From positions 1,036,374-1,100,373 of the forward strand of contig NZ_JAHSPD010000001.1 of assembly GCF_020141465.1 (NCBI RefSeq): DNA of 64,000 nt, written 5' to 3'. Origin of the DNA: Roseovarius carneus (lineage in GTDB: Bacteria > Pseudomonadota > Alphaproteobacteria > Rhodobacterales > Rhodobacteraceae). The notes below the pieces were generated by a model that ran no database searches, was not told the DNA's origin, and saw only the letters and a program-made list of their open reading frames with translations. Position numbers and translations under genes: made by a program. Positions 14,659-35,801 of this stretch are shown piece by piece. How positions within the stretch are numbered: position 1 is the stretch's first letter; each line of letters starts with the position of its first letter.

Positions 14659-15621
14659 ATGACCAACTACCTCGATTTTGAAAAACCGCTGGCGGAGATT
14701 GAAGGCAAGGCAGCCGAGCTGCGCGCCATGGCTCTTGCGGGCGAAGGTGTGGATGTCGACGCTGAGGCGGGCGCGCTCGATACCAAAGCGGCGCAAATGC
14801 TGCGCGACCTCTACAAGGACCTCACGCCCTGGCGCAAATGTCAGGTTGCGCGCCACCCCGAGAGGCCGCATTGCCGCGATTACATTAGTGCGCTTTTCAC
14901 CGAATACACACCGCTGGCGGGGGATCGGAACTTTGCCGATGATCACGCCGTGATGGGGGGGCTCGCCCGTCTGGGTGACCGGCCCGTGATGGTGATCGGC
15001 CACGAGAAGGGCAACGACACCAAATCCCGGATTGAGCGGAATTTCGGCATGGCCCGCCCTGAAGGATATCGCAAGGCAATCCGGCTGATGGAGATGGCGG
15101 GCAAGTTTGGCCTGCCTGTGGTCACGCTTGTGGACACGCCCGGCGCCTATCCCGGCAAGGGCGCCGAGGAGCGCGGCCAGTCCGAGGCGATTGCCCGCTC
15201 GACCGAGGCGTGTCTGAGCATCGGTGTGCCGCTGGTTAGCGTCATCATCGGCGAGGGCGGATCGGGCGGGGCCGTGGCCTTTGCCACCGCCAACCGGATC
15301 GCGATGCTGGAGCATTCAGTCTATTCCGTGATCAGCCCTGAGGGCTGTGCGTCGATCCTGTGGAAGGATGCGGAAAAAATGCGCGAGGCGGCAGAGGCGC
15401 TGCGCCTGACGGCCCAGGATTTGATCAAGCTGGGCGTGGCGGACCGGATCATTGAGGAGCCGATGGGCGGCGCGCATCGAGCCCCGTCCGAGGCGATCGC
15501 TTCTGTGGGTCGCGCGATCACCTCCATGCTGGCCGAGCTCGACGGCAAATCACCCAAGGTGCTGATCCGCACCCGGCGCGAGAAATTCCTTAACATTGGC
15601 GCCAAAGGGCTGGCAGCCTAG
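14659..15621 (+). CDS. accA: Acetyl-CoA carboxylase carboxyltransferase subunit alpha (320 aa)
   Basis: Alpha half of the carboxyltransferase that moves CO2 from biotin-BCCP to acetyl-CoA, the first step of fatty acid synthesis. The crotonase-like fold signature [20 protein letters not shown] is present, followed by [17 protein letters not shown] and [12 protein letters not shown]. Length matches the family (about 315-320). AGAGGG lies just upstream of the ATG. accD and accBC are not in the window, which is typical of bacteria that scatter acc genes. Its stop codon is shared tail to tail with the GntR gene (CTAG). Confidence 0.97.
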
Positions 15622-16265
15622 CTCGTCAACATTCTCAGCCCTTGCGTCACGTCCGAGCGAACGGCGAGGCGCAGCCCCGGCTCATCGCCTGCTTTGAGGG
15701 CTGCGATCATCAAGCGGTGATAAGGCGGCGGCTCCTTCGCGCGTAGGCGGCCATAGAGCGCCCGCATGGTGGGTCCAAGCTGTAGCCACACCGTCTCGGC
15801 CATGGCCAGCATCGCAGGCGCTTGAGCGCGCAGATAGAGCGTGCGGTGAAATTCCAGATTGCGGCGAATATAGGCGACGGCATCCTGGCGCGCGATATCC
15901 TCGGCGATGCGCCCGTTGATCTGGGTCAGCCGATCAATCAGCGCCATATGCGCGCGCGGCAACGCACGGCTGGCCAGCTCCACCTCGATGAGCGCGCGCA
16001 AGGCGGCCAGCTCTTCGATCCGGTCATTGCTCAGCTCGGGCGTGGAGACGCGGCCCGAATTACTCAGGCTTAGCGCGCCCTCGGCGACAAGGCGACGCAG
16101 CGCCTCGCGGGCCGGGGTCATGGAGACGTCGAACTCCTTGCCGATGCCGCGCAGGGTCAGCGACGCGCCCGGCGCGATCTCGCCATGCAGGATGCGGGTG
16201 CGCAGACCGCGATAGACGCGGTCATGGGCGGCGGGGGTCGGATCTGGGCGGGGTGCTTCTAGCAT
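15618..16265 (-). CDS. FCD-type GntR-family regulator, candidate TCA-cycle regulator (215 aa)
   Basis: The N-terminal GntR winged helix includes [18 protein letters not shown] and the recognition helix in [16 protein letters not shown]. The C-terminal all-helical FCD ligand domain includes [14 protein letters not shown] and FHRTLYLRA. Such regulators bind small acids and dissociate from TNGT..ACNA-type palindromes. A perfect palindrome GTTTGTGATCACAAAC lies 5 bp in front of the chosen ATG (MLEAPRPDP), where a ribosome site would be. The mRNA may therefore start at or near the ATG, with expression blocked by its own product. The same palindrome occurs in tandem before sucC and sdhC, making this protein the best local candidate for their regulator (inference). 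An upstream extension of the frame would run through the palindrome and is less likely. Confidence 0.85.
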
Positions 16266-16270
16266 GAGGC

Positions 16271-16286
16271 GTTTGTGATCACAAAC
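16271..16286. promoter_or_regulatory. Perfect palindrome GTTTGTGATCACAAAC, presumed autoregulatory operator
   Basis: A 16-bp perfect inverted repeat occupying the 31-bp gap between the metalloprotease gene and the GntR gene. The core TTGTGATCACAA is shared with the two tandem operator pairs at 25.57 and 31.89 kb. TTGT-N4-ACAA symmetry is typical of FCD-GntR operators. Confidence 0.75.
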
Positions 16287-16296
16287 TGCGCCCCGG

Positions 16297-16980
16297 TCAA
16301 TCCCCGAAGCGGTAGCGGTGCAGCGCGGTGCCGTGGGTCTTGAGCCAGAGGCGGTGTGCGTCATAGCCGGGGCAGAGCCGCGCCACGATATCCCAGAAGG
16401 CCTGTGAGTGGTTCATCTCGGCCAGATGCGCGACCTCATGGGCGGCCACGTAATCAAGCACGTCAGGCGGGGCCATGATCAGCCGCCAGGAATAATTGAG
16501 CGCGCCCGTGGACGAGCATGACGCCCAGCGCGAGCGCGTATCACGCAGGGTGATGCGGCTGTAGGGCCGCCCCAAAACACCCGAATAGTGATCCGATGCG
16601 GCCACCAGACGCTCGCGCGCCAGTGTTTTGAGCCATGCCTGCACCCGAGGCGCGACAGGGCCGGGCACGTAAAGTGCGCCGCCCTCGCGGTGCACCCGCC
16701 GCCCGGACCCGGTGCGAAGCTCCAGCGTCTCACCCTCCACCGGCAGGGACGCGCCAGGCGCAATGGTCACATCGTCGGGCTGTCGTGCCAGATGCCCTGC
16801 GAGCCATGCCTGCTTTTGCCGCGCAAAACTGAGTGCCTCTGCCTCGGGCAATCCGGGCGGTAGGGTCAGTGTGACCCGCCCGTCAAGGGCGCTTACCCGA
16901 AGTGATATGCGCCGTGCCTGAGCCGACCTTCGCAACGTGATCGCAATGGGGGGGTTGCCGGGAAGGATGTGCTGGCCCAT
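16297..16980 (-). CDS. YgjP-type (DUF45) metallopeptidase (227 aa)
   Basis: Zinc peptidase-like protein with the motif VAAHEVAHLAEMNHSQAFW: HExxH plus a downstream histidine and glutamate region, as in YgjP/SprT-related proteins. The preceding TRSRWASCSSTGALNYSWRL is the conserved block of the family. Two starts are possible. The ATG at 16980 has GGGAG five nt upstream and was preferred over the ATG at 16992. The substrate and role are not established for this family. It lies 31 bp upstream of the GntR gene on the same strand. Confidence 0.88.
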   Translation of the reverse strand: MGQHILPGNPPIAITLRRSAQARRISLRVSALDGRVTLTLPPGLPEAEALSFARQKQAWLAGHLARQPDDVTIAPGASLPVEGETLELRTGSGRRVHREGGALYVPGPVAPRVQAWLKTLARERLVAASDHYSGVLGRPYSRITLRDTRSRWASCSSTGALNYSWRLIMAPPDVLDYVAAHEVAHLAEMNHSQAFWDIVARLCPGYDAHRLWLKTHGTALHRYRFGD

Positions 16981-17096
16981 ATGCTCTCCCATAGGTCGCG
17001 CCGCTTGGCGGGAGTCAAAGCCTTTGACACCCCTGCGCCGTTATGGCAGTTGGCGCTGATCGTTCACAAGACCCATGATGCGGAAGGGAAGCACCC

Positions 17097-18557: not shown

Positions 18558-20066
18558 TCACAAATCCATCAACAACCGTCTTGGATCCTCCAGGGCCTCT
18601 TTCACCCGCACCAAGAACGTCACAGCGCCTTTGCCGTCCACGATGCGGTGGTCGTAGCTCAGCGCGAGATACATCATGGGGCGGATGACCACCTCTCCGC
18701 CCACTGCCATGGGGCGGTCCTGGATTTTGTGCATCCCGAGGATGCCCGATTGCGGCGGGTTGAGGATGGGTGAGGACATGAGTGAGCCGTAGACGCCGCC
18801 GTTGGAGATGGTGAATGTGCCGCCCTGCATTTCGGCCATGGAGAGCTTGCCATCGCGGGCGCGCGCGCCTTTTTCGGCGATGGCTTTCTCGATGCTGGCA
18901 AAGCTCATCGCGTCCGCGTCACGGATCACCGGGACCACGAGGCCTGTGGGCGTGCCGGCGGCGATGCCCATATGGACGAAGTTCTTGTAGACGATATCGG
19001 TGCCGTCGATCTCGGCGTTGACCTCGGGGACCTCTTTCAGTGCATGCACGCAGGCCTTGGTGAAGAAGGACATGAAGCCGAGTTTCACGCCGTGTTTTTT
19101 GAAGAATTGGTCCTTGTAGGCGTTTCGCAGCGCCATCACCTCGGTCATATCCACCTCGTTATAGGTGGTGAGCATGGCGGCGGTGTTCTGGCTGTCTTTC
19201 AGGCGGCGCGCGATGGTCTGGCGCAGGCGCGTCATCTTCACACGCTCCTCGCGGGCGGCGTCATCGGCGGAGACGGGCGCGCGGGGGGCAGTGGCGGCGG
19301 GCGCGGGGGCCGCTGGAGTCATAGCGCGTGGGGCGCTGGCCGCCTTTGCCACGTCCTCTTTCATGATGCGGCCATCCTTTCCGGTGCCGGTGATCTGGTC
19401 GGCGTTCAGCCCAGCCTCGGCCATTGCTTTCTTGGCCGATGGGGCGTTCTCGATATCCTTGGCCGGTGCGGCGGCGGGTGCCGCCGCAGGAGCGCTGGCT
19501 GGGGCGGAGGAGGCGCTTGCGCTGCCCGCGCTCAGCACGGCGAGCTTGCCGCTGGCCTGCACCGTGTCACCTTCGGCGGCGAGGATTTCGGTGATCACAC
19601 CTGCGGAGGGCGAAGGAACCTCGACCGAGACCTTGTCGGTCTCCAGCTCGCAGAGCATTTCGTCGGCGGCGACGGTATCGCCCACGGCCTTGAACCATGT
19701 GGAGACTGTCGCCTCGGTCACACTCTCGCCCAAGGTCGGGACCATCACGTCAACAGACGCGCCACCTGAGGCAGGTGTCTCAGTGGCTGCGGGCGCCGCC
19801 TTTTCAGCCTTTGCAGAGGCATCGCCCGCGCCTTCCGAGATGACAGCCAGAAGCGCGTTCACGCCGACAGTTTCACCTTCGGCGGCAACGATCTCGCCCA
19901 TCATTCCTGCGGCGGGGGCAGGCACTTCGACGGTGACCTTGTCGGTCTCCAATTCGCAGAGCATTTCATCGGCCTCGACCGTATCACCGGGTTTCTTGAA
20001 CCATGTGGCAACGGTGGCCTCGGACACGGATTCGCCCAAGGTGGGCACGCGGACTTCTGTGGACAT
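18558..20066 (-). CDS. sucB: 2-oxoglutarate dehydrogenase E2, dihydrolipoyl succinyltransferase (502 aa)
   Basis: Core of the OGDH complex, which transfers the succinyl group to CoA. Two complete lipoyl domains are seen, each with the ETDKV lipoylation motif (Lys43 and Lys145), joined by Ala/Pro-rich linkers. The E1/E3-binding domain follows ([20 protein letters not shown], residues ~210-245), then the catalytic domain ending with [18 protein letters not shown] (active-site His and Asp). Two lipoyl domains are more than the single one found in E. coli SucB, which explains the extra length. It is 3 bp downstream of sucA in the sucCDAB operon. Confidence 0.96.
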
Positions 20067-20069
20067 GGC

Positions 20070-23027
20070 TCAGTTTCCTTTGATGGTCAGCGCGTCATCG
20101 ATGAGCGCTTCTTGTTGTGTTTTGTGCTGGCTGGCCAGACCCGTGGCGGGGGAGGCGGAAGCGGCGCGTCCTGCATAGGTCGCGCGCGGGTGTTTGGCGT
20201 CGATACGGCCCAGAACCCACTCGATATTCGGCTCGATGAAGTTCCATGCGCCTTGGTTCTTAGGCTCTTCCTGACACCAGACCATTTCGGCACCTTTGAA
20301 CCGTTCCAGCTCACCCACCATGGAGATTGCCGGGAAGGGGTAGAACTGCTCAATCCGCAGCAGATAGACATCGGTGATGCCGCGCGCATCGCGTTCCTCC
20401 AGCAGGTCGAAATAGACCTTGCCCGAGCACATGACGACGCGTTTGATCTTGTCATCGGCCACAAGTTTGGTGTCGGAATTGCCGTATTGCGCATCGTCCC
20501 AGAGCACGCGGTGGAAGCTGGACCCGATGGTAAACTCCTCGGCCCGGCTGACGGCCATCTTGTTACGCAGCAGCGACTTGGGCGTCATCAGGATCAGCGG
20601 TTTGCGGAAGGTGCGGTGCAATTGGCGGCGCAGCAGGTGGAAGTAATTCGCAGGCGTCGTGCAATTGGCCACGATCCAGTTGTCGCCGCCGCACATGGTC
20701 AGGAAGCGCTCCAACCGGGCAGAGCTGTGCTCGGGGCCTTGGCCCTCATACCCGTGCGGCAGCAGGCAGACGAGGCCGGACATGCGCAGCCATTTGCTCT
20801 CGCCGCTTGAGATGAACTGATCAAACATGATCTGTGCGCCATTGGCGAAATCACCAAATTGCGCCTCCCAGAGCGTCAGGGCATTGGGCTCGGCCAACGT
20901 GTAGCCATACTCGAACCCAAGCACCGCGTATTCCGAAAGCATCGAATCGATGACCTCATAGCGGGCCTGCCCCTCGCGGATGTTGTTGAGCGGATAATAC
21001 CGATCCTCGTTATCTTGGTTGATATAGGCCGAGTGGCGCTGGCTGAATGTGCCGCGCGCGCTGTCCTGACCCGACAGGCGCACCGGGAAGCCCTCGACGG
21101 CGAGCGAGCCGAACGCAAGCGCCTCGCCCGTGGCCCAGTCGAACCCCTCGCCGGTCTCGAACATCTTGCGCTTGGCCTCCATTAGACGGCCAATGGTCTT
21201 GTGGATTGGGAAATTTTCAGGCGCAGTGGTCAGCGCGCGGCCGATCTCGTGAAACGTCTCTTCCTCGATCGCCGTCTGGCCGCGCTGATAGTCGTCCTTG
21301 TGACGGTTCAGATGTGACCACTTCCCATCGAGCCAATCGGCCTTGTTGGGCTTGTAGGTCGTGCCTGCCTCAAACTCATCCGCGAGATGGGCCTGAAACG
21401 CAGTTTTCATATCCTCGACCTCGCCCTCGGGGATGAGGCCGTCCCGGACCAAACGCTCGGTATAGAGGCTGAGCGTGGTCTTCTGAGTCTTGATCTTTTT
21501 ATACATCACCGGGTTGGTAAACATGGGCTCATCGCCCTCGTTATGACCAAAGCGGCGGTAGCAGATGATATCGACAACCACGTCTTTCTGGAATTTCTGC
21601 CGGAACTCGGTGGCGACCTTGGCGGCATGCACCACCGCTTCCGGGTCATCGCCGTTCACGTGGAAAATCGGCGCCTCCACCATCAGGGCGATATCCGTAG
21701 GGTAGGGCGAGGAGCGCGAGAAATGCGGCGCGGTGGTAAAGCCGATCTGGTTGTTCACCACGATATGGATCGTGCCGCCCGTCTTGTGGCCCTTGAGGCC
21801 CGAGAGACCAAAACACTCGGCCACGACGCCTTGCCCCGCAAAGGCCGCGTCGCCATGCAGCAAAATGGGCAGAACAGTCTTCCGCTCGGTATCGCCGAAC
21901 TGGTCCTGCTTGGCGCGGACCTTGCCCAGAACAACGGGGTTCACCGCCTCAAGGTGGCTGGGGTTTGGTGTGAGGCTGAGATGGACGGTATTGCCGTCAA
22001 ACTCGCGGTCGGACGAGGTGCCGAGGTGATATTTCACATCGCCTGAGCCTTCCACATCCTCGGGTTTAAAGCTGCCACCCTGAAATTCGTTGAAGATTGC
22101 GCGGTAGGGCTTGCCCATCACATTGGCCAGCACCGAAAGCCGCCCGCGGTGGGGCATGCCGACGACGATATCTTTCACGCCAAGGTTGCCGCCGCGTTTG
22201 ATGATCTGCTCCATCGCAGGGATCAGCGACTCCCCACCATCAAGCCCGAAGCGCTTGGTGCCCATGTATTTGACGTGCAGGTATTTCTCAAAGCCCTCGG
22301 CTTCGACCATCTTCTTGAGGATCGCCTTGCGCCCTTCACGGGTGAAGCTGATTTCCTTGCCATAGCCTTCGATCCGCTCCTTGAGCCAATTGGCCTGCTC
22401 GGGGTCGGAGATATGCATGTATTGCAGCGCGAATGTGCCACAATAGGTGCGCCGTACGATCCCGAGGATCTCGCGGATCGACGCGATTTGCAGGCCCAGC
22501 ACATTGTCGATGAAAATTGGCCGGTCCATGTCCTCGGGCGTGAAGCCGTAGGATTTCGGATCAAGCTCGGGGCGGTGAGGCTGTTCGCGCAGGCCAAGCG
22601 GGTCAAGATCGGCGATGAGGTGGCCCCGGATCCGGTAGGCGCGGATCAGCATCAGCGCGCGGACCGAGTCCAGCACCGCGCGCTGGATCGCCTTGTCGGA
22701 AATCTCGGCACCTGCATCGCTGGCTTTGGCGGCAATCTTGCGGCCTGCATCTTTTGCCTCTTCGGTGGGCCATTCCCCGGTCAGCGCCGCGGTCAAGTCA
22801 TCATTGGGCACAGGCGGCCAATCGGCGCGCGCCCATGATGGCCCTTGCGCCTCGGCCTTCACATCTAGATCGGCATCCCCAAGCTCGGCAAAGAAAGCCT
22901 GCCACGCTTCGTCCACGGCACCCGGATCGGCGGCGTAGCGTGCATAGAGCTGCTCCAGATACTCGGCATTGTGGCCTTGCATGAAGGAAGAGGCGTGGAA
23001 CTGATCGTTGGCGGGATGGTCGGTCAT
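20070..23027 (-). CDS. sucA: 2-oxoglutarate dehydrogenase E1 component (985 aa)
   Basis: Thiamine-diphosphate enzyme that decarboxylates 2-oxoglutarate and succinylates lipoyl-SucB. Recognisable are the N-terminal FMQGHNAEYLEQLYARY that binds the complex, the substrate region GMPHRGRLSVLANVMGKP, the ThDP motif GDAAFAGQG...NNQIGFTT, and LLPHGYEGQGPEHSSARLER. Length is standard. The start MTDHPAND has AGAGG seven nt upstream. The 60 extra codons of the open frame above it are unconserved and overlap a separate small ORF. Confidence 0.98.
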   Translation of the reverse strand: MTDHPANDQFHASSFMQGHNAEYLEQLYARYAADPGAVDEAWQAFFAELGDADLDVKAEAQGPSWARADWPPVPNDDLTAALTGEWPTEEAKDAGRKIAAKASDAGAEISDKAIQRAVLDSVRALMLIRAYRIRGHLIADLDPLGLREQPHRPELDPKSYGFTPEDMDRPIFIDNVLGLQIASIREILGIVRRTYCGTFALQYMHISDPEQANWLKERIEGYGKEISFTREGRKAILKKMVEAEGFEKYLHVKYMGTKRFGLDGGESLIPAMEQIIKRGGNLGVKDIVVGMPHRGRLSVLANVMGKPYRAIFNEFQGGSFKPEDVEGSGDVKYHLGTSSDREFDGNTVHLSLTPNPSHLEAVNPVVLGKVRAKQDQFGDTERKTVLPILLHGDAAFAGQGVVAECFGLSGLKGHKTGGTIHIVVNNQIGFTTAPHFSRSSPYPTDIALMVEAPIFHVNGDDPEAVVHAAKVATEFRQKFQKDVVVDIICYRRFGHNEGDEPMFTNPVMYKKIKTQKTTLSLYTERLVRDGLIPEGEVEDMKTAFQAHLADEFEAGTTYKPNKADWLDGKWSHLNRHKDDYQRGQTAIEEETFHEIGRALTTAPENFPIHKTIGRLMEAKRKMFETGEGFDWATGEALAFGSLAVEGFPVRLSGQDSARGTFSQRHSAYINQDNEDRYYPLNNIREGQARYEVIDSMLSEYAVLGFEYGYTLAEPNALTLWEAQFGDFANGAQIMFDQFISSGESKWLRMSGLVCLLPHGYEGQGPEHSSARLERFLTMCGGDNWIVANCTTPANYFHLLRRQLHRTFRKPLILMTPKSLLRNKMAVSRAEEFTIGSSFHRVLWDDAQYGNSDTKLVADDKIKRVVMCSGKVYFDLLEERDARGITDVYLLRIEQFYPFPAISMVGELERFKGAEMVWCQEEPKNQGAWNFIEPNIEWVLGRIDAKHPRATYAGRAASASPATGLASQHKTQQEALIDDALTIKGN

Positions 23028-23253: not shown

Positions 23254-24135
23254 TTACCCAATCGCTTCCATCACCGCCTCACCCAGTTGGGCAGGGCTGT
23301 CGGCGACGATAATCCCGGCGGCGCGCATGGCGTCGATCTTGTCCTCGGCGCCGCCCTTGCCGCCTGCAACGATGGCACCTGCGTGGCCCATGCGGCGGCC
23401 CGGAGGGGCGGTGCGCCCGGCGATGAACCCGGCGGTGGGCTTCCAGCGGCCCTTTTTCTTCTCATCAATCAGGAACTGCGCGGCCTCTTCTTCCGCGCTG
23501 CCGCCAATCTCGCCAATCATGATGATGCTCTGCGTCTCGTCATCGGCGAGGAACCATTCGAGCACGTCAATATGCTCGGTCCCTTTGATGGGATCGCCGC
23601 CAATGCCCACGGCCGTGGACTGGCCCAGCCCCAGATCGGTGGTTTGTTTCACGGCCTCATAGGTCAGCGTGCCGGAGCGCGACAGCACCCCGCAGGAGCC
23701 GCGTTTGTGGATATGGCCGGGCATGATGCCAATTTTGCACGCGCCGGGCGTGATCACACCGGGGCAGTTGGGCCCCACAAGGCGGGATTTGGAGCCTTCC
23801 AACGCGCGTTTGACGCGCATCATGTCCAGCACGGGAATGCCTTCGGTGATGCAGATGATCACCTCCATCTCGGCGTCGATCGCCTCAAGAATGGAATCAG
23901 CGGCGAAGGGGGGCGGCACGTAGATCACCGACGCGTTCGCGTCCGTCACATGCTTGGCCTCGTGGACCGAGTTGAAGACCGGCAGGTCCAGATGCGTTTG
24001 CCCGCCTTTGCCGGGGGTCACGCCGCCGACCATCTTGGTGCCATAAGCAATAGCCTGTTCGGTGTGGAACGTGCCCTGAGAGCCGGTGAGGCCCTGACAG
24101 ATTACGCGTGTGTGCTCATTGATGAGGACTGCCAT
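23254..24135 (-). CDS. sucD: Succinyl-CoA synthetase subunit alpha (293 aa)
   Basis: CoA-binding alpha subunit of the ATP/GDP-forming succinyl-CoA ligase. The N-terminal CoA-binding Rossmann domain starts [20 protein letters not shown], followed by [14 protein letters not shown]. The phosphorylated active-site histidine is in [18 protein letters not shown]. The acidic CoA-ligase loop [12 protein letters not shown] is present. Length is normal. It is 132 bp downstream of sucC in the same operon. Confidence 0.97.
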
Positions 24136-24267: not shown

Positions 24268-25461
24268 TCACCCCTTTACCGCTTTCACGATCTTCTCGGC
24301 GCCATCTTTCAGGTTGTCCGCCGCGATCACGTCGAGGCCGGAGGTCGATATGATCTCCTTGCCCTTCTCCACGTTTGTCCCCTCAAGCCGCACGACCAGT
24401 GGCACCTTGAGGCCCACTTCTTTCACCGCAGCGATCACGCCCTCGGCGATCACATCGCAGCGCATGATGCCGCCGAAGATGTTCACGAGGATGCCTTTGA
24501 CCTGTGGATCGGAGGTGATGATCTTGAACGCCTCGGTCACCTTTTCCTTGGTCGCCCCGCCGCCGACGTCGAGGAAGTTTGCAGGCTCGGCCCCGTAGAG
24601 CTTGATGATGTCCATCGTCGCCATGGCCAGACCCGCGCCGTTGACCATGCAGCCAATCTCGCCATCGAGTGCGATATAGTTCAGGTCATACTTAGAGGCT
24701 TCCAGCTCCTTGGGGTCCTCCTCGGTGGTGTCGCGCAGCTCGGCGATGTCGGCGTGGCGGTAGATCGCGTTGCCATCAAAGCTGATCTTGGCGTCCAGCA
24801 CCTTGAGATCGCCCGCATCGGTCACGATGAGCGGATTGATCTCCAGCATCTCCATGTCCTTCTCCTCGAAGGCTTTGTAGAGCAGCCCCATAAGGCCTAC
24901 GCATTGCTTCACCTGCTTGCCCGAAAGGCCCAGTTCAAATGCGATGCGGCGGCCATGATAAGGCTGATACCCGGTGGCGGGATCGACGGAGAAGCTGAGG
25001 ATTTTCTCAGGCGTGGCCTCGGCCACCTCCTCGATATCCATACCGCCTTCAGTCGAGGCGACAAAGCTGATGCGGCTGGTTTGGCGATCCACCAAAAGGG
25101 CCAGATACATCTCCGTCTCGATGCCGGAACCATCCTCGATATAGATGCGGTTGACCTGCTTGCCCGCAGGACCCGTCTGCTTCGTCACGAGGGTGCGGCC
25201 CAGCATCTTGCGCGCCTCATCGGCGGCCTCCTGCACGGATTTGGTAAGGCGCACGCCGCCTGCCTCGCCTGCACCAGCCTCTTTGAATGTGCCCTTGCCG
25301 CGCCCACCTGCGTGGATCTGCGCCTTGACCACCCAGAGGGGTCCGTCCATCTCGCCCGCGGCGGTTTTTGCCTCTTCAGCGCGCAACACGACGCGCCCGT
25401 CGGACACTGGCGCGCCATAGGAGCGCAGAAGCGCCTTGGCCTGATACTCGTGGATGTTCAT
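24268..25461 (-). CDS. sucC: Succinyl-CoA synthetase subunit beta (397 aa)
   Basis: ATP-grasp subunit that binds nucleotide and succinate. The N-terminus [19 protein letters not shown] is the family start and fixes the ATG. The extra 14 residues of the open frame are unconserved. The ATP-grasp lysine region [15 protein letters not shown] and the C-terminal domain blocks [17 protein letters not shown] and [13 protein letters not shown] follow. It is the first gene of sucC-sucD-ORF-sucA-sucB. Two TGTGATCACA palindromes lie about 107-141 bp upstream of its start. Confidence 0.97.
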
Positions 25462-25567: not shown

Positions 25568-25602
25568 TTTGTGATCACACGTTTTCATGCTGTGATCACA
25601 AA
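25568..25602. promoter_or_regulatory. Tandem TTGTGATCACAA-type operators upstream of sucCDAB
   Basis: Site 1, TTTGTGATCACACG (25568-25581), and site 2, GCTGTGATCACAAA (25589-25602), have centres 21 bp apart, two helical turns, so two dimers would sit on the same face. They match the palindrome in front of the GntR gene at 16271. The leftward sucC gene starts 107 bp away, and the rightward glycosyltransferase gene starts at 25702. Confidence 0.75.
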
Positions 25603-25701
25603 TATGCAATAGCTTCGCCCTTGGCATGGAATCAAGCGCTCGTTACGCTGGCGGCAAGCGGCCTCAGGCGGGCCCGCAAAGAACCAAGGAGAGGCTTAGG
25701 T

Positions 25702-26733
25702 GTGACACCTGCAACACCATGCGCAACATGGGGCATCGTCATGACCGTGCGCGAGCCCGCGCAGTTGGTTCTGGCCAATCTGGGCTGGCATCTGGGCACG
25801 GGTGCGTCCGAAATTCACGTCTATTTCGACGATCCGGATGATATGGCTGTTCCGATGACAGCCCCCTTGGCCGAAGTGCGCGCAATCCGCTGCGACCCGG
25901 CCCATTGGGCCGAGGTTGCCCCCTCGGGCAAACGCCCCCCCACCCATCGCCGCCGCCAGGGCCTCAATGCAAACCATGCGCTGGCACGGTGCGAGGTGGA
26001 TTGGCTCATCCATCTGGATGCCGACGAATTCCTCGTCCAATCCCGCCCCTTGGGCGCCGAAATGGCCGCCGTGCGCGACCTCGAATGCGAACTCTACTTC
26101 CCCGTCGCCGAGCGTGTGTTTCACGCCGATACCCCTGCGCAGACCATCTTCGACGGCGCATTCCGTCTTTGCACCCGCACCATGCTGCGCCGGGGCGATG
26201 GGATCGACAATGAGGCGGTGATCTTTGGCGATCAGAACCGCTTTTTCGATTACGGCATGCTTGGCCATTCGGCGGGAAAATGCGCTGTGCCGTGGGATGG
26301 TGGTTTCCGCCTTGGCATCCACTGGGCGCATCTGGGCAAAACCCGCACGCGGGCCGAGAGGTTTCGCAGCACCTCCACCCGGCTTTTGCATTTCGATGGG
26401 CTGACGCGGCTGCATTGGCTGGCCAAGCTGCGCCGCTATGCGATGTATGACCCGGCTGAGTTCAACACCGCCGCGCACCGCCAAGCGCAGGTCGATCTCG
26501 CGCGCGAGATGGCCGATGTGCCGGGCGGGTACGAGCGTATCCACGCGGATCTGAAGGAAGCGAGCGCCGCAGAGCTGGACCGCCTGCGCGCCTTTGGGCT
26601 GCTTGATGACACGGTCTTCGATCCCGCACCTGTGCTGCAAGATGTGCTGGGCCAAGTGCCTGATCTGAGCGTGCAAGCGTTTGACAAAGCACTGCGCGAG
26701 GTGATGCCGGAGCGCACCGAAGGGCTCAGTTAA
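25702..26733 (+). CDS. Glycosyltransferase family 2-type protein (343 aa)
   Basis: Inverting GT-A-fold glycosyltransferase of the Glyco_tranf_2_4 kind. The opening TPATPCATWGIVMTVREPAQ leads into the nucleotide-sugar site, and the metal-binding DxD motif is in WLIHLDADEFLVQ. Later sequence AVPWDGGFRLGIHWAHLG is typical of the family. GTG 25702 was chosen because AAGGAGAGG ends 7 nt upstream, an excellent match. The acceptor (polysaccharide, LPS or glycoprotein) is unknown. Its promoter region overlaps the operator pair of sucC. Confidence 0.85.
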   Translation: MTPATPCATWGIVMTVREPAQLVLANLGWHLGTGASEIHVYFDDPDDMAVPMTAPLAEVRAIRCDPAHWAEVAPSGKRPPTHRRRQGLNANHALARCEVDWLIHLDADEFLVQSRPLGAEMAAVRDLECELYFPVAERVFHADTPAQTIFDGAFRLCTRTMLRRGDGIDNEAVIFGDQNRFFDYGMLGHSAGKCAVPWDGGFRLGIHWAHLGKTRTRAERFRSTSTRLLHFDGLTRLHWLAKLRRYAMYDPAEFNTAAHRQAQVDLAREMADVPGGYERIHADLKEASAAELDRLRAFGLLDDTVFDPAPVLQDVLGQVPDLSVQAFDKALREVMPERTEGLS

Positions 26734-26796: not shown

Positions 26797-27427
26797 ATGC
26801 CGTTTGACACCTATCTGATCTATCTCGCTGCCGTTGCCGTGTTCTTCGCCACCTCCCCCCGACACCAGCCAGCTTTTGATCATCTCCAACAGCATCTGCC
26901 ATGGCCTGCGCAAAAGCGCCTTCACCATTGCCGGGGACCTCACCGCGAACTCCCTTCAGATGACAGCTGCCGCCTTCGGCCTTGCCGCAATCATCGCAAC
27001 CTCGGCCACGGCTTTTGTCTGGATCAAATGGCTGGGTGTGGCCTATCTCGTGTGGATAGGGGTGCAGCTTATCCGCTCCAAGGCGCAGGCGGGCGAGATT
27101 GAAGCGGCGGCGTCTGGCACGCGGTTTCGCCTTTTTCGGCAGGGGTTTTTCACCTCCATGGCGAACCCGTTCGCGGTGGTGTTTTTCGGCGCGCTCTTCC
27201 CGCAATTCATCGATCCGAACGCTGCCGTGCTCCCACAGCTTTTGGTGCTGGGGGTGACCTATCTTGTGGTGGACGGGGCGATCTTGCTGCTCTGGGGTTG
27301 GCTGGGCCTGAGGGCCGCCACGGCGCTCAAGCGGTTTTCCTTCGTCAGGGTCAATAAGGTCTGCGGCAGTTTGATGATCGCCGCCGCCGCCCTTCTGGCC
27401 ACCAAGGATTTTGAGCCTCAGCGCTGA
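26797..27427 (+). pseudogene. LysE-family exporter interrupted by a +1 frameshift in a C6 run
   Basis: The first 20 codons (MPFDTYLIYLAAVAVFFATS) are in one frame, and the rest (DTSQLLIISNSICHGLRKSA through LLATKDFEPQR) is in the frame one base later. The switch falls on six consecutive C at 26855-26860. Removing one C restores an unbroken LysE protein of about 209 aa with the family motif FATSPDTSQLLIIS and the later MANPFAVVFFGALFPQFID. It is therefore either a recent pseudogene, a phase-variable tract, or a sequencing or assembly error in a homopolymer. It is followed by a shared terminator and convergent mdh. Confidence 0.85.
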
Positions 27428-28880: not shown

Positions 28881-29080
28881 GTCATACCCTTTCTGGTTAA
28901 AATGTCCCTGACGCTGAAGTGCCTTTAACCCTGCCTCAGGAAGTCCCAAAACGTGGTTAACGCGCCGTGCGATTGCCACCCAAAACCGAGCGCCTCTGCG
29001 CTGCGGCGCGAATCCGCTTGCCGCATGGGCGCAAAAAATGGCATCCCGGCGCATGCAATACCCTAGCTCAGGAGAGGCGC

Positions 29081-29941
29081 ATGGACGCAGCAACCCATCC
29101 CTATCGCTCGGTGCTCTATATCCCCGGCTCGAAGGAGCGGGCGCTCGACAAGGCGCGCAGCCTGCCTGCCGATGCGATCATCTTTGATTTGGAGGACGCG
29201 GTCGCCCCCGATGCCAAGGCCGAGGCGCGCGAAACGCTGGCCGAGGCGCTGCGCATCGGTGGGTATGGCAAACGCGCCAAAATCGTTCGGATCAACGCGC
29301 TGACCACGGCATGGGGGCTGGAAGACGTGCGGGTCTTGGGCGACGCAGGCGCGGATGCGATCCTCTTGCCCAAGGTGAATACACCTTCGGATGTGGATAA
29401 TCTGGTCGATCTCCTGCCTGCAACGATGCCTATTTGGGTGATGATGGAGACGCCCACCAGCGTTTTCAACGCGCGCGAGATTGCTGCCCATGGTCGGGTG
29501 ACGGGGCTGGTGACGGGCACGAATGATCTGACCAAAGAGCTTGGCTGCCGCGTGCGCGCCGACCGGATGCCGCTCATGAACGCGCTGCAACGCATCATCA
29601 TGGCCGCCCGCGCAGCCCGGATCGTGGCGATTGACGGGGTCTACAACCGGTTCCGCGATGGTGATGGGCTTTTGGCGGAATGTGAGCAGGGGCGCGATCT
29701 GGGCTTTGACGGCAAAACCTTGATTCACCCACTTCAGATTGAGGGCGCAAACCGGGCGTTTGCGCCCACCGCGTCGGAGATTGATCTGGCCGAGCGGCAA
29801 ATCGAAGCATTTGAACAAAGCAAGGCGTCGGGGCAGGGGGTTGCGGTCGTGGACGGTATGATCGTGGAGAACCTGCATGTGGTGGCCGCCAAGAGGATCC
29901 TCGCAAAAGCGCAGGCCGTGGCAGAAATGGAGAATGTGTGA
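29081..29941 (+). CDS. mcl2: (3S)-malyl-CoA thioesterase / CoA ester lyase family, Mcl2-like (286 aa)
   Basis: HpcH/HpaI (citrate lyase beta) superfamily TIM barrel: RSVLYIPGSKERALDKARSL opens the fold, IIFDLEDAVAPDAK carries metal ligands, and MMETPTSVFNAREIA plus GTNDLTKELG complete the site. In Rhodobacter sphaeroides the matching gene, close to mdh, mch and sdh, is mcl2, which hydrolyses malyl-CoA to malate and CoA in the ethylmalonyl-CoA pathway of acetate assimilation. Same length and neighbourhood support the call. A malyl- or citramalyl-CoA lyase cannot be excluded. GGAG lies 6 nt before the ATG. Its TGA overlaps the nnrU-like ATG. Confidence 0.8.
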   Translation: MDAATHPYRSVLYIPGSKERALDKARSLPADAIIFDLEDAVAPDAKAEARETLAEALRIGGYGKRAKIVRINALTTAWGLEDVRVLGDAGADAILLPKVNTPSDVDNLVDLLPATMPIWVMMETPTSVFNAREIAAHGRVTGLVTGTNDLTKELGCRVRADRMPLMNALQRIIMAARAARIVAIDGVYNRFRDGDGLLAECEQGRDLGFDGKTLIHPLQIEGANRAFAPTASEIDLAERQIEAFEQSKASGQGVAVVDGMIVENLHVVAAKRILAKAQAVAEMENV

Positions 29942-30701: not shown

Positions 30702-31733
30702 ATGGCCAAGACCAATCCAGGGCGCTTTTTCGAGGACTACACCGTGGGCGAGACGATCTACCACGCGGTGCCGCGCACCGTGTCGGGCGGAGAACGCGCG
30801 CTTTATCATGCGTTCTACCCGGCGCGACATGCGCTTTACTCGTCGGATGAGTTCGCGCGTTCCTGCGGCCTACCAAGCGCGCCGCTGGACGATATCGAGG
30901 CCTTTCATGTGGTCTTTGGTAAGACGGTGCCGGATATCTCGCTCAATGCGCTGGCCAATCTGGGATATGCGGAGGGGCGCTGGCTCAAGCCGGTCTATGC
31001 GGGCGACACGATCCATTCCACATCCGAGGTGATCGGCCTCAAGCAGAACTCAAGCGGCAAGTCCGGTGTTGTCTGGGTGCGCACGCGGGGGATGAACCAA
31101 TGCAGCGAGGTGGTGCTGGATTATGTGCGCTGGGCGATGGTGCGCAAACGCGACCCTGAGAGCCCCGCTCCCGAGGTCGTTATCCCTGAGTTGAAGCCTG
31201 CTTTGGAGGCTGCTGATCTGGTGATCCCAGACGAGCTTGATTTCACCAATTATGATTTCACTCTCGCGGGGGAGCCGCATCGCTGGGGCGATTACCGCGT
31301 GGGTGAGCAGATTGATCATGTGGACGGTGTGACCGTCGAGGAAGCCGAGCATATGATGGCCACGCGCCTCTGGCAGAACACGGCCAAGGTGCATTTCGAC
31401 GTAGGCGCGCGGCCCGACGGGCGGCGGCTTATCTATGGCGGCCACGTGATTTCCATGGCCCGCGCACTGAGCTTCAACGGCCTGGCCAATGCGCAGATCG
31501 TGGCGGGGCTGAACGGTGGGGCGCACGCGAACCCCTGCTATGCGGGCGACACGATCAAGGCCTGGTCTGAGGTATTGGATAAGGCCGAGACGTCAGCGCC
31601 GGGCGTGGGCGCGCTGCGCCTGCGGCTTGTGGCGACGAAGGGTGGCGAGGCCTTTGCGCTTAGGGGTACGGATGGCAAATATCTGCCTGAGGTGATGCTG
31701 GATCTGGATTACTGGGTTTTGATGCCTGTCTAA
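30702..31733 (+). CDS. mch: Mesaconyl-CoA hydratase (343 aa)
   Basis: Double hot-dog (MaoC-like) enzyme that interconverts mesaconyl-CoA and beta-methylmalyl-CoA in the ethylmalonyl-CoA pathway. N-terminal PGRFFEDYTVGETIYHAVPR and the later paired half RWGDYRVGEQIDHVDGVTVE mark the two hot-dog repeats. GNG-type substrate segments YAGDTIHSTSEVIG and YAGDTIKAWSEVL occur in each half. Length equals the characterised Rhodobacter enzyme. Context with mcl2 supports the role. Confidence 0.92.
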   Translation: MAKTNPGRFFEDYTVGETIYHAVPRTVSGGERALYHAFYPARHALYSSDEFARSCGLPSAPLDDIEAFHVVFGKTVPDISLNALANLGYAEGRWLKPVYAGDTIHSTSEVIGLKQNSSGKSGVVWVRTRGMNQCSEVVLDYVRWAMVRKRDPESPAPEVVIPELKPALEAADLVIPDELDFTNYDFTLAGEPHRWGDYRVGEQIDHVDGVTVEEAEHMMATRLWQNTAKVHFDVGARPDGRRLIYGGHVISMARALSFNGLANAQIVAGLNGGAHANPCYAGDTIKAWSEVLDKAETSAPGVGALRLRLVATKGGEAFALRGTDGKYLPEVMLDLDYWVLMPV

Positions 31734-31888: not shown

Positions 31889-31922
31889 TTTGTGATCACA
31901 GAGAAATATGTGTGATCACAAA
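31889..31922. promoter_or_regulatory. Tandem TTGTGATCACAA-type operators upstream of sdhCDAB
   Basis: Two copies of TGTGATCACA at 31891-31900 and 31911-31920, flanked by T and A rich arms (TTTTTGTGATCACA; TGTGATCACAAAA). Centres are 20 bp apart, the same spacing class as the pair at sucC. They lie 167-196 bp before the sdhC start. Confidence 0.75.
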
Positions 31923-32086: not shown

Positions 32087-32470
32087 ATGGCCGATGTGAA
32101 CCGGGGAAAGCGCCCCCTCTCACCCCATTTGACGATTTACCGACCGCAGCTGACATCGATCACCTCTATCCTCACGCGGATTACGGGCAATGCCTTGATC
32201 CTCGCGATGTTGTTGATCGTCTGGTGGTTTCTTGCGGCGGCCTCATCGCCAGACTATTTCGCGATTGCTGACGGCGTTTTGCGCAGCTGGTTCGGTGATC
32301 TTGTGCTGGTCCTGTCGCTCTGGGCGCTGTGGTATCACACGCTGGCGGGTGTGCGGCATCTGATCTGGGACAGCGGTGCGATGCTTGAGATTGAAAAGGC
32401 AGAGATGCTGGGCAAGCTTGTCATTGGCGGCTCGGTGCTGTTGACGCTTTTGACCGTCGCGATCGTCTGA
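32087..32470 (+). CDS. sdhC: Succinate dehydrogenase cytochrome b556 subunit (127 aa)
   Basis: Membrane anchor of complex II. The family start RPLSPHLTIYRPQLTSITSI (quinone-site serine region) is followed by three membrane helices. The haem-ligand histidine lies in LWYHTLAGVRHLIWD in helix two. Length is normal. It is the first gene of sdhC-sdhD-sdhA-lipoprotein-sdhB. Confidence 0.96.
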   Translation: MADVNRGKRPLSPHLTIYRPQLTSITSILTRITGNALILAMLLIVWWFLAAASSPDYFAIADGVLRSWFGDLVLVLSLWALWYHTLAGVRHLIWDSGAMLEIEKAEMLGKLVIGGSVLLTLLTVAIV

Positions 32471-32484
32471 GGGGGCTTTAGATC

Positions 32485-32856
32485 ATGGGATATATGACAG
32501 ACCGCAAACGCGCGGTGGGACTTGGATCGGCCAAATCGGGCGTGCATCATTTTTGGGCCATGAAGGTCAGCTCGGTTGCACTTTTGATCCTCATACCGCT
32601 TTTCGTTTTCACATTCGGGCCGATCCTTGGCTCCGAGCATGCCGAGGTCGTGGCCTATTTCGCGCGGCCTTTCCCCGCCATCGTGGCCGGGCTCACGATC
32701 ATCGTGGGGTTCAAGCACTTCAATGATGGTGTGCAAACCTTGATCGAGGACTATGTCCATGGGGGACCGCAGAAAATCGCTCTGATTGGTGCGACCTGCC
32801 TATCCTATGCCGCGATGGCGACCGGGCTTTTTGCCATCGCCAAGATCGCCCTTTGA
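32485..32856 (+). CDS. sdhD: Succinate dehydrogenase hydrophobic anchor subunit (123 aa)
   Basis: Second membrane anchor of complex II. It has three hydrophobic segments, with a basic N-terminus ending in GVHHFWAMKVSSVALLI. The FKHFNDGVQTLIEDYVHGG segment after helix two includes the conserved Asp-Tyr near the quinone site. It lies 14 bp after sdhC and 18 bp before sdhA. Confidence 0.93.
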   Translation: MGYMTDRKRAVGLGSAKSGVHHFWAMKVSSVALLILIPLFVFTFGPILGSEHAEVVAYFARPFPAIVAGLTIIVGFKHFNDGVQTLIEDYVHGGPQKIALIGATCLSYAAMATGLFAIAKIAL

Positions 32857-32874: not shown

Positions 32875-34680
32875 ATGGCTGCATACGAATACGAGACGCA
32901 TGATTATGACGTCGTGGTCGTGGGTGCGGGGGGTGCTGGTTTGCGCGCCACGCTGGGCATGGCGGAGCAGGGTCTGCGCACCGCCTGCATCACCAAGGTG
33001 TTTCCCACCCGCTCGCACACCGTTGCGGCGCAAGGTGGGATTGCCGCGTCCTTGAGCAATATGGGCCCGGATCATTGGCAGTGGCATATGTATGACACGG
33101 TCAAAGGCTCGGACTGGCTCGGGGATACGGACGCGATGGAGTATCTGGCGCGTGAGGCGCCCAAGGCTGTTTATGAGCTTGAGCATTACGGCGTGCCGTT
33201 TTCGCGCACGGAAGAGGGCAAGATCTATCAGCGCCCCTTTGGCGGCCACACGACCGAGTTTGGCGAGGGGCCCGCGGTGCAACGCACATGCGCCGCCGCC
33301 GACCGGACGGGACATGCGATTCTGCACACGCTTTATGGCCAATCTCTCAAGAATAACGCCGAGTTCTATATTGAGTATTTCGCCATTGATTTGCAGATGT
33401 CCGACGATGGCCAATGTACCGGCGTTGTGTGCTGGAAGCTGGATGACGGCACGATGCATGTGTTCAACGCCAAGACGGTTGTGTTGGCCACGGGCGGCTA
33501 TGGTCGTGCGTATTTCTCGGCCACATCGGCGCATACCTGCACCGGCGATGGCGGCGGGATGGTCGCGCGGGCGGGGCTGCCGCTTCAGGATATGGAGTTT
33601 GTGCAGTTTCACCCCACCGGGATTTACGGCGCGGGGTGCCTTATCACCGAAGGCGCGCGCGGCGAGGGTGGATACCTCACCAATTCCGAGGGCGAGCGGT
33701 TCATGGAGCGTTATGCGCCCAATTATAAGGACCTCGCGCCGCGCGATTATGTCTCGCGCTGTATGACGATGGAGATCCGCGAAGGCCGCGGTGTGGGCGC
33801 TGAGGGCGATCATATTCACCTCAACCTCAGCCACCTGCCCCCCGAGGCGCTGAACCTGCGCCTGCCGGGTATTTCCGAGAGTGCGAAGGTCTTTGCAGGC
33901 GTTGACGTCACCAAGGAGCCGATCCCGGTTCTGCCGACCGTGCATTACAATATGGGCGGTATCCCCACGAATTACTGGGGCGAGGTTGTGAACCCAACCA
34001 AGGATGATCCGCATGCGATCGTGCCCGGCCTGATGGCTGTGGGCGAGGCCGGCTGTGCGTCGGTGCATGGGGCGAACAGGCTTGGGTCCAATTCGCTGAT
34101 CGATCTGGTCGTGTTTGGCCGGGCTGCGGCGATCCGCGCGGGCAAGGTTGTGGACCGCGAAAGCGCTGTGCCCGCCACCAACGCGGGGCAAGTCGACAAG
34201 GCGTTTGACCGTTTCGATGCGCTGCGCCATGCGGATGGGGCCATGCCCACTGCCGCCCTGCGCCTTGAGATGCAGCGCACCATGCAAGCCGACGCTGCCG
34301 TTTTCCGTGCGTCGAAGACGATGAAGGATGGCGTGGACAAGATGGACGCCATCGCCCGCAAGATGCCAGATATCAAGGTCACGGACCGCAGCCTGATCTG
34401 GAACAGTGATCTGATGGAAACGCTTGAGCTGACCAATCTCATGCCGAACGCGCTGGCCACCATCGCGGGCGCCGAGGCGCGCCATGAGAGCCGGGGGGCG
34501 CATGCGCATGAGGATTTCAGCGCGCGTGACGACAAGAAATGGCGTGTTCACTCGATTGCGCGGGTGGACGGGCCAGATGTGACGTTGAGCTACCGGCCCA
34601 TCATCGAGACGCCTTTGACAGACGAGGATGCAGGCGGGATCAGCCTGAAGCGGATCGCGCCGAAAGAGCGCACGTTTTGA
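32875..34680 (+). CDS. sdhA: Succinate dehydrogenase flavoprotein subunit (601 aa)
   Basis: FAD subunit oxidising succinate to fumarate. The dinucleotide-binding [20 protein letters not shown] is at residues ~13-33. The covalent-FAD histidine is His48 in [11 protein letters not shown]. Catalytic segments [20 protein letters not shown] and [17 protein letters not shown] follow, as does [19 protein letters not shown]. Length is normal. The TGA overlaps the next ATG by one base. Confidence 0.98.
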
Positions 34681-35021: not shown

Positions 35022-35801
35022 ATGGTTCAACTCACACTCCCTAAAAACTCGCGGATGACGGCGGGCAAGACATGGCCCAAACCCGAGGGCGCGACCAATC
35101 TGCGCAAGTTCCAGATCTATCGCTGGACGCCCGACGATGGGGCAAACCCCCGCGTGGATACATATTTCGTGGATATGGACACGTGCGGGCCGATGGTTCT
35201 GGACGCGCTGATCAAGATCAAGACCGATATTGACCCTACGCTGACCTTCCGGCGGTCCTGCCGCGAGGGGATTTGCGGCTCCTGCGCGATGAATATCGAC
35301 GGGATCAACACGCTAGCCTGTATCTATGGCATGGATGAGATCAAGGGCGATGTGAAAATCTACCCCCTGCCGCACATGCCCATCGTGCGCGATCTGATCC
35401 CGGACCTCACGCATTTCTATGCCCAGCACGCCTCCATCATGCCGTGGCTTGAGACCAAGACGAACAAGCCCGCCAAAGAGTGGAAGCAATCCATCGAGGA
35501 TCGCGAAAAGCTCGATGGGCTCTACGAATGTGTGATGTGCGCGTGCTGCTCGACCTCCTGCCCCAGCTATTGGTGGAATGGCGACAAGTATCTCGGGCCT
35601 GCAGCCTTGCTGCACGCATATCGTTGGATCATCGACAGCCGCGATGAAGCCACGGGCGAGCGTCTGGACGAGCTTGAGGACCCCTTCAAGCTCTACCGCT
35701 GCCACACGATCATGAATTGCACGAAAACCTGCCCCAAAGGCCTCAATCCGGCCAAGGCTATTGCGCATATCAAAAAGATGATGGTCGAACGCACCGTCTA
35801 A
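35022..35801 (+). CDS. sdhB: Succinate dehydrogenase iron-sulfur subunit (259 aa)
   Basis: Electron-transfer subunit of complex II. The [2Fe-2S] ligands are in [15 protein letters not shown] plus the later Cys in TLACIYG. The [4Fe-4S] and [3Fe-4S] ligands lie in [16 protein letters not shown] and [17 protein letters not shown]. The tryptophan-rich SYWWNGD near the quinone site is present. AAGGAG lies 6 nt before the ATG. A hairpin follows the stop. Confidence 0.98.

Follow-up and report, generated by a model that had tools for sequence, protein, structure and literature searches.

An AkgR-type GntR regulator of Roseovarius carneus with a predicted single operator at its own gene and predicted tandem operators upstream of suc and sdh

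AkgR of R. sphaeroides is presumably the product of gene RSP_0981, and RSP_1663 of the same organism is presumably CceR. Excerpts of PMC4344238 predict that the GntR regulator RSP_0981 controls RSP_0967-6 (succinyl-CoA synthetase), RSP_0974-6 (succinate dehydrogenase) and RSP_0965-62 (alpha-ketoglutarate dehydrogenase). They also predict that mdh and sdh of R. sphaeroides are regulated by RSP_1663, which, however, belongs to the LacI family and is assigned the motif GTT-N6-8-AAC (PMC4344238). In the available parts of PMC6365646, AkgR is termed a transcriptional activator and GTGATCAC is found among the AkgR sites. According to the same parts, this palindrome is also present upstream of the GntR regulator PS417_07240 from the deoxyribonate cluster of Pseudomonas simiae; this regulator is 32% identical to AkgR but has been proposed for deoxyribonate catabolism rather than for the TCA cycle (PMC6365646). 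In the accessible sections of PMC11323563, PMC5507952, PMC4419725 and PMC7471390, AkgR is named in the reference lists only, and PMC6546801, judged by its accessible sections, deals with a PdhR homologue and is without bearing on AkgR.

Here, we compare these systems with a 64,000-nucleotide stretch of the R. carneus genome (the window). For this stretch an initial annotation had proposed a regulon in which a GntR protein controls its own gene together with the suc and sdh operons, and had known of no described regulator for the motif in this group. The latter remark does not stand, since AkgR is such a regulator (PMC6365646 and PMC4344238, both in excerpt). The idea of the regulon was right but not new, the regulator having been described in R. 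sphaeroides together with its motif and targets; the idea is supported by the genome-wide exclusivity of the motif, its conservation in the family, its co-occurrence with the regulator and the statements on R. sphaeroides in these excerpts.

The regulator gene and its surroundings comprise the following features:

15618..16265, minus strand: akgR orthologue encoding a protein of 215 aa with GntR helix-turn-helix and FCD domains (Pfam)
16271..16286, no strand assigned: putative akgR operator, perfect 16-bp palindrome GTTTGTGATCACAAAC, 5 bases from the akgR ATG
16295..16300, minus strand: -35-like TTGACC of the presumed akgR promoter; its TGA is the stop codon of the upstream YgjP-like gene
16297-16992: YgjP-like metallopeptidase gene adjoining akgR

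The ATG of akgR is located at 16265-16263 on the minus strand, and the encoded protein matches the Pfam families FCD (E 1.4e-16) and GntR (E 3.8e-14). The closest solved FCD-GntR protein by sequence is PDB 4p9f (E 6.5e-20) and the best NCBIfam model is PRK11414, both of which we take to represent E. coli McbR. The regulon of McbR differs from that of AkgR. As the score against PRK11414 reached 81.9 bits at a cut-off of 225, assignment of the window protein to the McbR equivalog was rejected. A second FCD-GntR protein, 39% identical to the window protein, is encoded in the same genome about 6 kb before the window (G000:C1:1029472-1030077).

Cereibacter johrii, which we assume to be the sister species of R. 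sphaeroides, was used as a stand-in for the latter, its genome having been reached by way of a malyl-CoA lyase fragment. In C. johrii, the protein most similar to that of the window shares 77% identity with it and the next FCD-GntR protein 33%. The genes are arranged there in the order sucB, sucA, sucD, sucC, mdh, sdhC, sdhD, sdhA, sdhB, regulator, with the regulator gene sitting between a YgjP-like gene and sdhB. This arrangement agrees with the order implied by the RSP numbers (PMC4344238, in excerpt). In the window, GTGATCAC-type sites are present before sucCD and sdh, matching the AkgR motif in the available parts of PMC6365646. Judged by the 77% identity and by the matching gene order, the window gene looks like the orthologue of RSP_0981. 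The YgjP-like gene adjoins akgR both in the window and in C. johrii, although the two genes lie on the sucB side of the suc-sdh cluster in the former and on the sdhB side in the latter. A further difference concerns the akgR operator, which is carried by the window gene but absent from the C. johrii gene.

The perfect palindrome directly before the gntR gene had already been pointed out, and its position as listed above bears this out. When 44 akgR-type loci were compared, the operator core was present upstream of the gene with at most one mismatch in 36. At this threshold it was missing from the remaining 8 loci, which include that of C. johrii and that of C. changlensis, the latter being cut by a contig edge. 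Autoregulation is therefore not shared by all of them. Of the 36 loci with the core, 34 have a TTGAC that begins 16-17 bp ahead of it, and the distance from the first T of this TTGAC to the ATG amounts to 34-36 nt in 31 of these 34. The TGA of this element terminates an upstream frame of at least 90 codons in 16/34 loci but not in the other 18, and the stop codon alone is thus insufficient to explain conservation of TTGAC. Assuming the usual spacer of 17 bp, the +1 position would coincide with the akgR ATG and the operator would extend across the spacer and the -10 region; in the window the corresponding hexamer is CACAAA, which matches TATAAT poorly. Placed between TTGAC and the ATG, the akgR operator occupies the position of a repressor site, which predicts autorepression and a near-leaderless akgR messenger.

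The putative target operons and their upstream sites are located at higher coordinates in the window:

18558..20066, minus strand: sucB, E2 (NF004309, 766 bits, cut-off 449)
20070..23027, minus strand: sucA, 2-oxoglutarate dehydrogenase E1, start codon assumed (NF006914, 1377.8 bits, cut-off 764)
23254..24135, minus strand: sucD (NF004230, 456 bits, cut-off 336)
24268..25461, minus strand: sucC, succinate-CoA ligase beta, first gene of the suc operon (NF001913, 582 bits, cut-off 370)
25569..25601, minus strand: predicted suc tandem operators, two TGTGATCACA cores 21 bp apart
31890..31921, plus strand: predicted sdh tandem operators, two TGTGATCACA cores 20 bp apart
32087..32470, plus strand: sdhC (TIGR02970, 125 bits, cut-off 52.3)
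32485..32856, plus strand: sdhD, named by operon position
32875..34680, plus strand: sdhA (TIGR01816, 915 bits, cut-off 727)
35022..35801, plus strand: sdhB (NF004616, 384 bits, cut-off 228)

The assignment of mdh likewise passes the curated cut-off. For sdhD no NCBIfam match was found at 1e-20; its product is 44% identical to that of the C. johrii frame between sdhC and sdhA. Two genes, one glycosyltransferase-like (25693-26733) and one of the LysE type (26834-27427), separate sucC from mdh. The first of these and sucC point away from each other on either side of the operator region, and AkgR could affect this glycosyltransferase-like gene as well. Genes for an HpcH/HpaI-type lyase (28967-29941) and a mesaconyl-CoA hydratase-like protein (30702-31733) are found between mdh and sdh, as in C. 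johrii.

According to the initial annotation, the gntR palindrome and the tandem pairs before the two operons share one core. The tandem pairs before sucC and sdhC were recovered, but the 12-base sequence TTGTGATCACAA occurs in exact form only once in the window, namely before gntR, each tandem half-site deviating from it at one position; what all five sites have in common is the 10-mer TGTGATCACA. The suc sites (25569-25580 and 25590-25601) start 139 and 118 bp upstream of the ATG of sucC, and the sdh sites (31890-31901 and 31910-31921) start 196 and 176 bp upstream of the ATG of sdhC. Across the examined suc and sdh loci the first site of the pair starts 126-202 bp before the start codon, and several further sucC pairs start at -166 to -197. 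At sdh, a -35-like GTGAC begins 57-58 bp downstream of the second site in 16/20 loci, which would place the sdh pair near -97 and -118. The sdh promoter of the window is one of the four exceptions, the conserved GTGAC not being found there, and for suc the motif search yielded no clear core promoter.

These positions bear on the direction of regulation. The link between regulator and sites could be real and AkgR could nevertheless act as a repressor of suc and sdh, as many FCD-GntR proteins are repressors and the akgR operator itself is placed like a repressor site. We consider this unlikely, given the considerable distance of the suc and sdh pairs upstream of the start codon and given that the -35-like element at sdh mostly follows them at the distance given above. 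The upstream position fits the label of an activator that AkgR bears in the available parts of PMC6365646. With regard to suc and sdh, the sign of regulation is the main point of doubt.

In the whole genome of 3,050,628 bp, exact TGTGATCACA occurs 5 times, each time at akgR, sucCDAB or sdhCDAB, as against about 1.5 copies expected in the whole genome from the base composition of the window; the reversed pattern does not occur in the genome (0 copies). With up to two mismatches, the window contains 9 matches to the motif versus 1.68 expected, and none of 100 shuffles reached 9. As judged from the exact genomic copies, which are all located there, the three promoters are probably the main regulon.

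The arrangement is widespread in the family. The order sample comprised 195 genomes, all of one family, and the window protein has a match at E 2.3e-76 or better in 192 of them. At least one exact TGTGATCACA is present in 192/195 genomes, while the reversed control occurs 0 or 1 times per genome. Exact pairs separated by 0-30 bases were detected in 144/195 genomes, representing 66 of 87 genera. Among the pairs listed (n=75), the spacing is 21 bp in 69 and 20 bp in 4 cases, with 30 and 39 bp observed once each, and all 30 tandem loci that were fetched precede either sucC (22) or sdhC (8). In a second sample of 289 Alphaproteobacteria, 4/5 family genomes carry the exact pair versus 1/284 of the others, and the best match to the window protein among these 284 reaches 145 bits, as compared to at least 330 bits for family members among the matches listed. 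Three genomes stand apart in the number of TGTGATCACA copies (G011, G064 and G095 with 35, 36 and 23, versus 0-19 in the other 192). A tandem TGTGATCACA pair with 22 bp spacing is also present in a genome from outside the family, about 2.5 kb from another FCD-GntR gene (G206:C1:1130807-1130838); here the same operator design may have come into use independently.

The initial annotation had further suggested testing whether the motif tracks the gntR orthologue. This was addressed in a family set of 395 genomes, 30 of which have no match to the window protein better than 1e-60; lack of the orthologue is thus defined by a score threshold, and G109 and G675 (E about 1e-57) may possess diverged orthologues. 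Two of the 30 (G572, G608) were dropped, their SucC being unmatched. The remaining 28 were compared with 40 orthologue-bearing genomes picked by hand at rough steps down the same list of matches, from which G625 was dropped with sucC at a contig edge, and with 14 additional, non-randomly chosen ones. Of the latter, 8 came from the malyl-CoA lyase search and one is the genome of the window itself; G059 and G178 were included for zero exact motif, G011 and G064 for many copies, and G020 as the sister of G023. Scored at up to 4 mismatches in 20 bases, the pair before sucC was present in 53/53 genomes with the orthologue (spacing of 21 bp in 51 and 20 bp in 2) but in only 3/28 genomes without it (Fisher p 6e-18, kinship ignored). 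The three latter genomes (G502, G571, G658), in which the pair is present and the orthologue undetected, are drafts of 210 to 320 contigs; absences here rest on draft assemblies, in which gaps are possible. G023, considered as a counter-example with sites but no akgR, was discarded, as part of its assembly reads N and the absence of akgR is thus uninformative; it is omitted from the 3/28 (4/29 with G023).

At sdhC, the pair was found in 11/14 orthologue-bearing genomes, the exceptions being G059, G178 and G011, and it is absent from G140 and G109. The regulator of G109 is a diverged relative, 50% identical, which carries its own operator, and this genome has no pair at either sucC or sdhC. On a SucC tree of 80 genomes, in which 38/77 inner branches are open, G023 is labelled akgR-less and G582 and G509 are not included owing to partial SucC matches although they count among the 53, a minimum of 9 changes is needed for the orthologue label and of 5 for the pair. 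The well-supported branches provided five independent comparisons, of which about 2 were concordant, none was opposite and 3 showed no difference (p 0.5). Taken together, the counts give a strong association between orthologue and site, but one that does not reach significance when shared ancestry is taken into account.

This lack of significance speaks for sites that are chance sequence, or neutral sequence retained through common descent. Such an explanation is, however, extremely improbable, and a chance origin can be excluded for practical purposes: the five exact copies in the genome all fall at three promoters, none of 340 shuffled upstream regions contained a pair within 4 mismatches, and cores and pair spacing are kept across the family while the spacer and the flanks have diverged.

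A motif owned by another regulator, for instance the second FCD-GntR protein or a CRP-like protein, would reduce akgR to a mere target. An FCD-GntR paralogue is indeed encoded near the suc-sdh cluster, and the half-site TGTGA resembles that of CRP. CRP sites, however, hold six bases between the half-sites, whereas there are none between them here. Upstream of the paralogue-type genes, 8/9 loci are devoid of TGTGATCACA within 420 bp at up to one mismatch, the ninth (L194 in G481) has a single TTTGATCACA, and the exact core is found in 0/9. Moreover, the pairs before suc and sdh are retained in C. johrii, G020 and G486 even though the next FCD-GntR proteins of these genomes score only 72, 58 and 45 bits. 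With cores nearly absent upstream of its own gene and pairs kept without a close copy of it, the FCD paralogue was rejected as the owner of the motif, and we regard ownership by another regulator as highly improbable.

Thus, the AkgR orthologue is very probably an autorepressor that in addition acts as an activator of suc and sdh in the form of paired dimers. One AkgR dimer would bind to each TGTGATCACA palindrome. At its own gene, binding within the promoter core would block RNA polymerase and lead to self-repression, the akgR message being probably near-leaderless. At suc and sdh, the two cores are separated by two helical turns and lie about 105-200 bp ahead of the start codon; owing to this separation two dimers can share one face of the DNA, and they would be positioned there side by side upstream of the core promoter. 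The ensuing activation would raise transcription of the genes for succinyl-CoA synthetase, 2-oxoglutarate dehydrogenase and succinate dehydrogenase, and the activity of AkgR is probably set by a small carboxylate bound in the FCD domain, as deduced from the family.

With respect to the FCD domain, residues Asn136, His140, His183 and Asp205 are invariant in 44/44 akgR rows, corresponding to 43 genes, and are also kept in 6-7 of 8 paralogue rows. These columns may be the metal ligands, the usual FCD set consisting of Asp, His, His and His. A more far-reaching reading, which we put forward tentatively and hold to be rather doubtful, combines two operator geometries throughout the Rhodobacteraceae with joint loss of gene and platform and with an altered Asn-His-His-Asp pocket, unlike the ligand modes of other FCD proteins. 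A single operator within its own promoter, together with a leaderless messenger, would then provide tight negative feedback, and two dimers positioned far upstream of suc and sdh would form a rigid activating platform spanning two helical turns.

What is added here to the description of AkgR is the rule of the 20-21-bp pair, the operator embedded in the akgR promoter and the co-occurrence counts. In the literature on AkgR and RSP_0981, as far as it was accessible, neither the rule of the 21-bp spacing nor the operator within the promoter nor the co-occurrence test was encountered; all three may nonetheless be in print. As the exact pair is present in 66/87 genera, the description from R. sphaeroides seems to apply broadly. 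Pairs with a spacing of 20-21 bp are specific enough for annotation of the AkgR regulon by sequence. If true, the lower half of the TCA cycle, from 2-oxoglutarate to fumarate, would be tied to one regulator in a large bacterial family.
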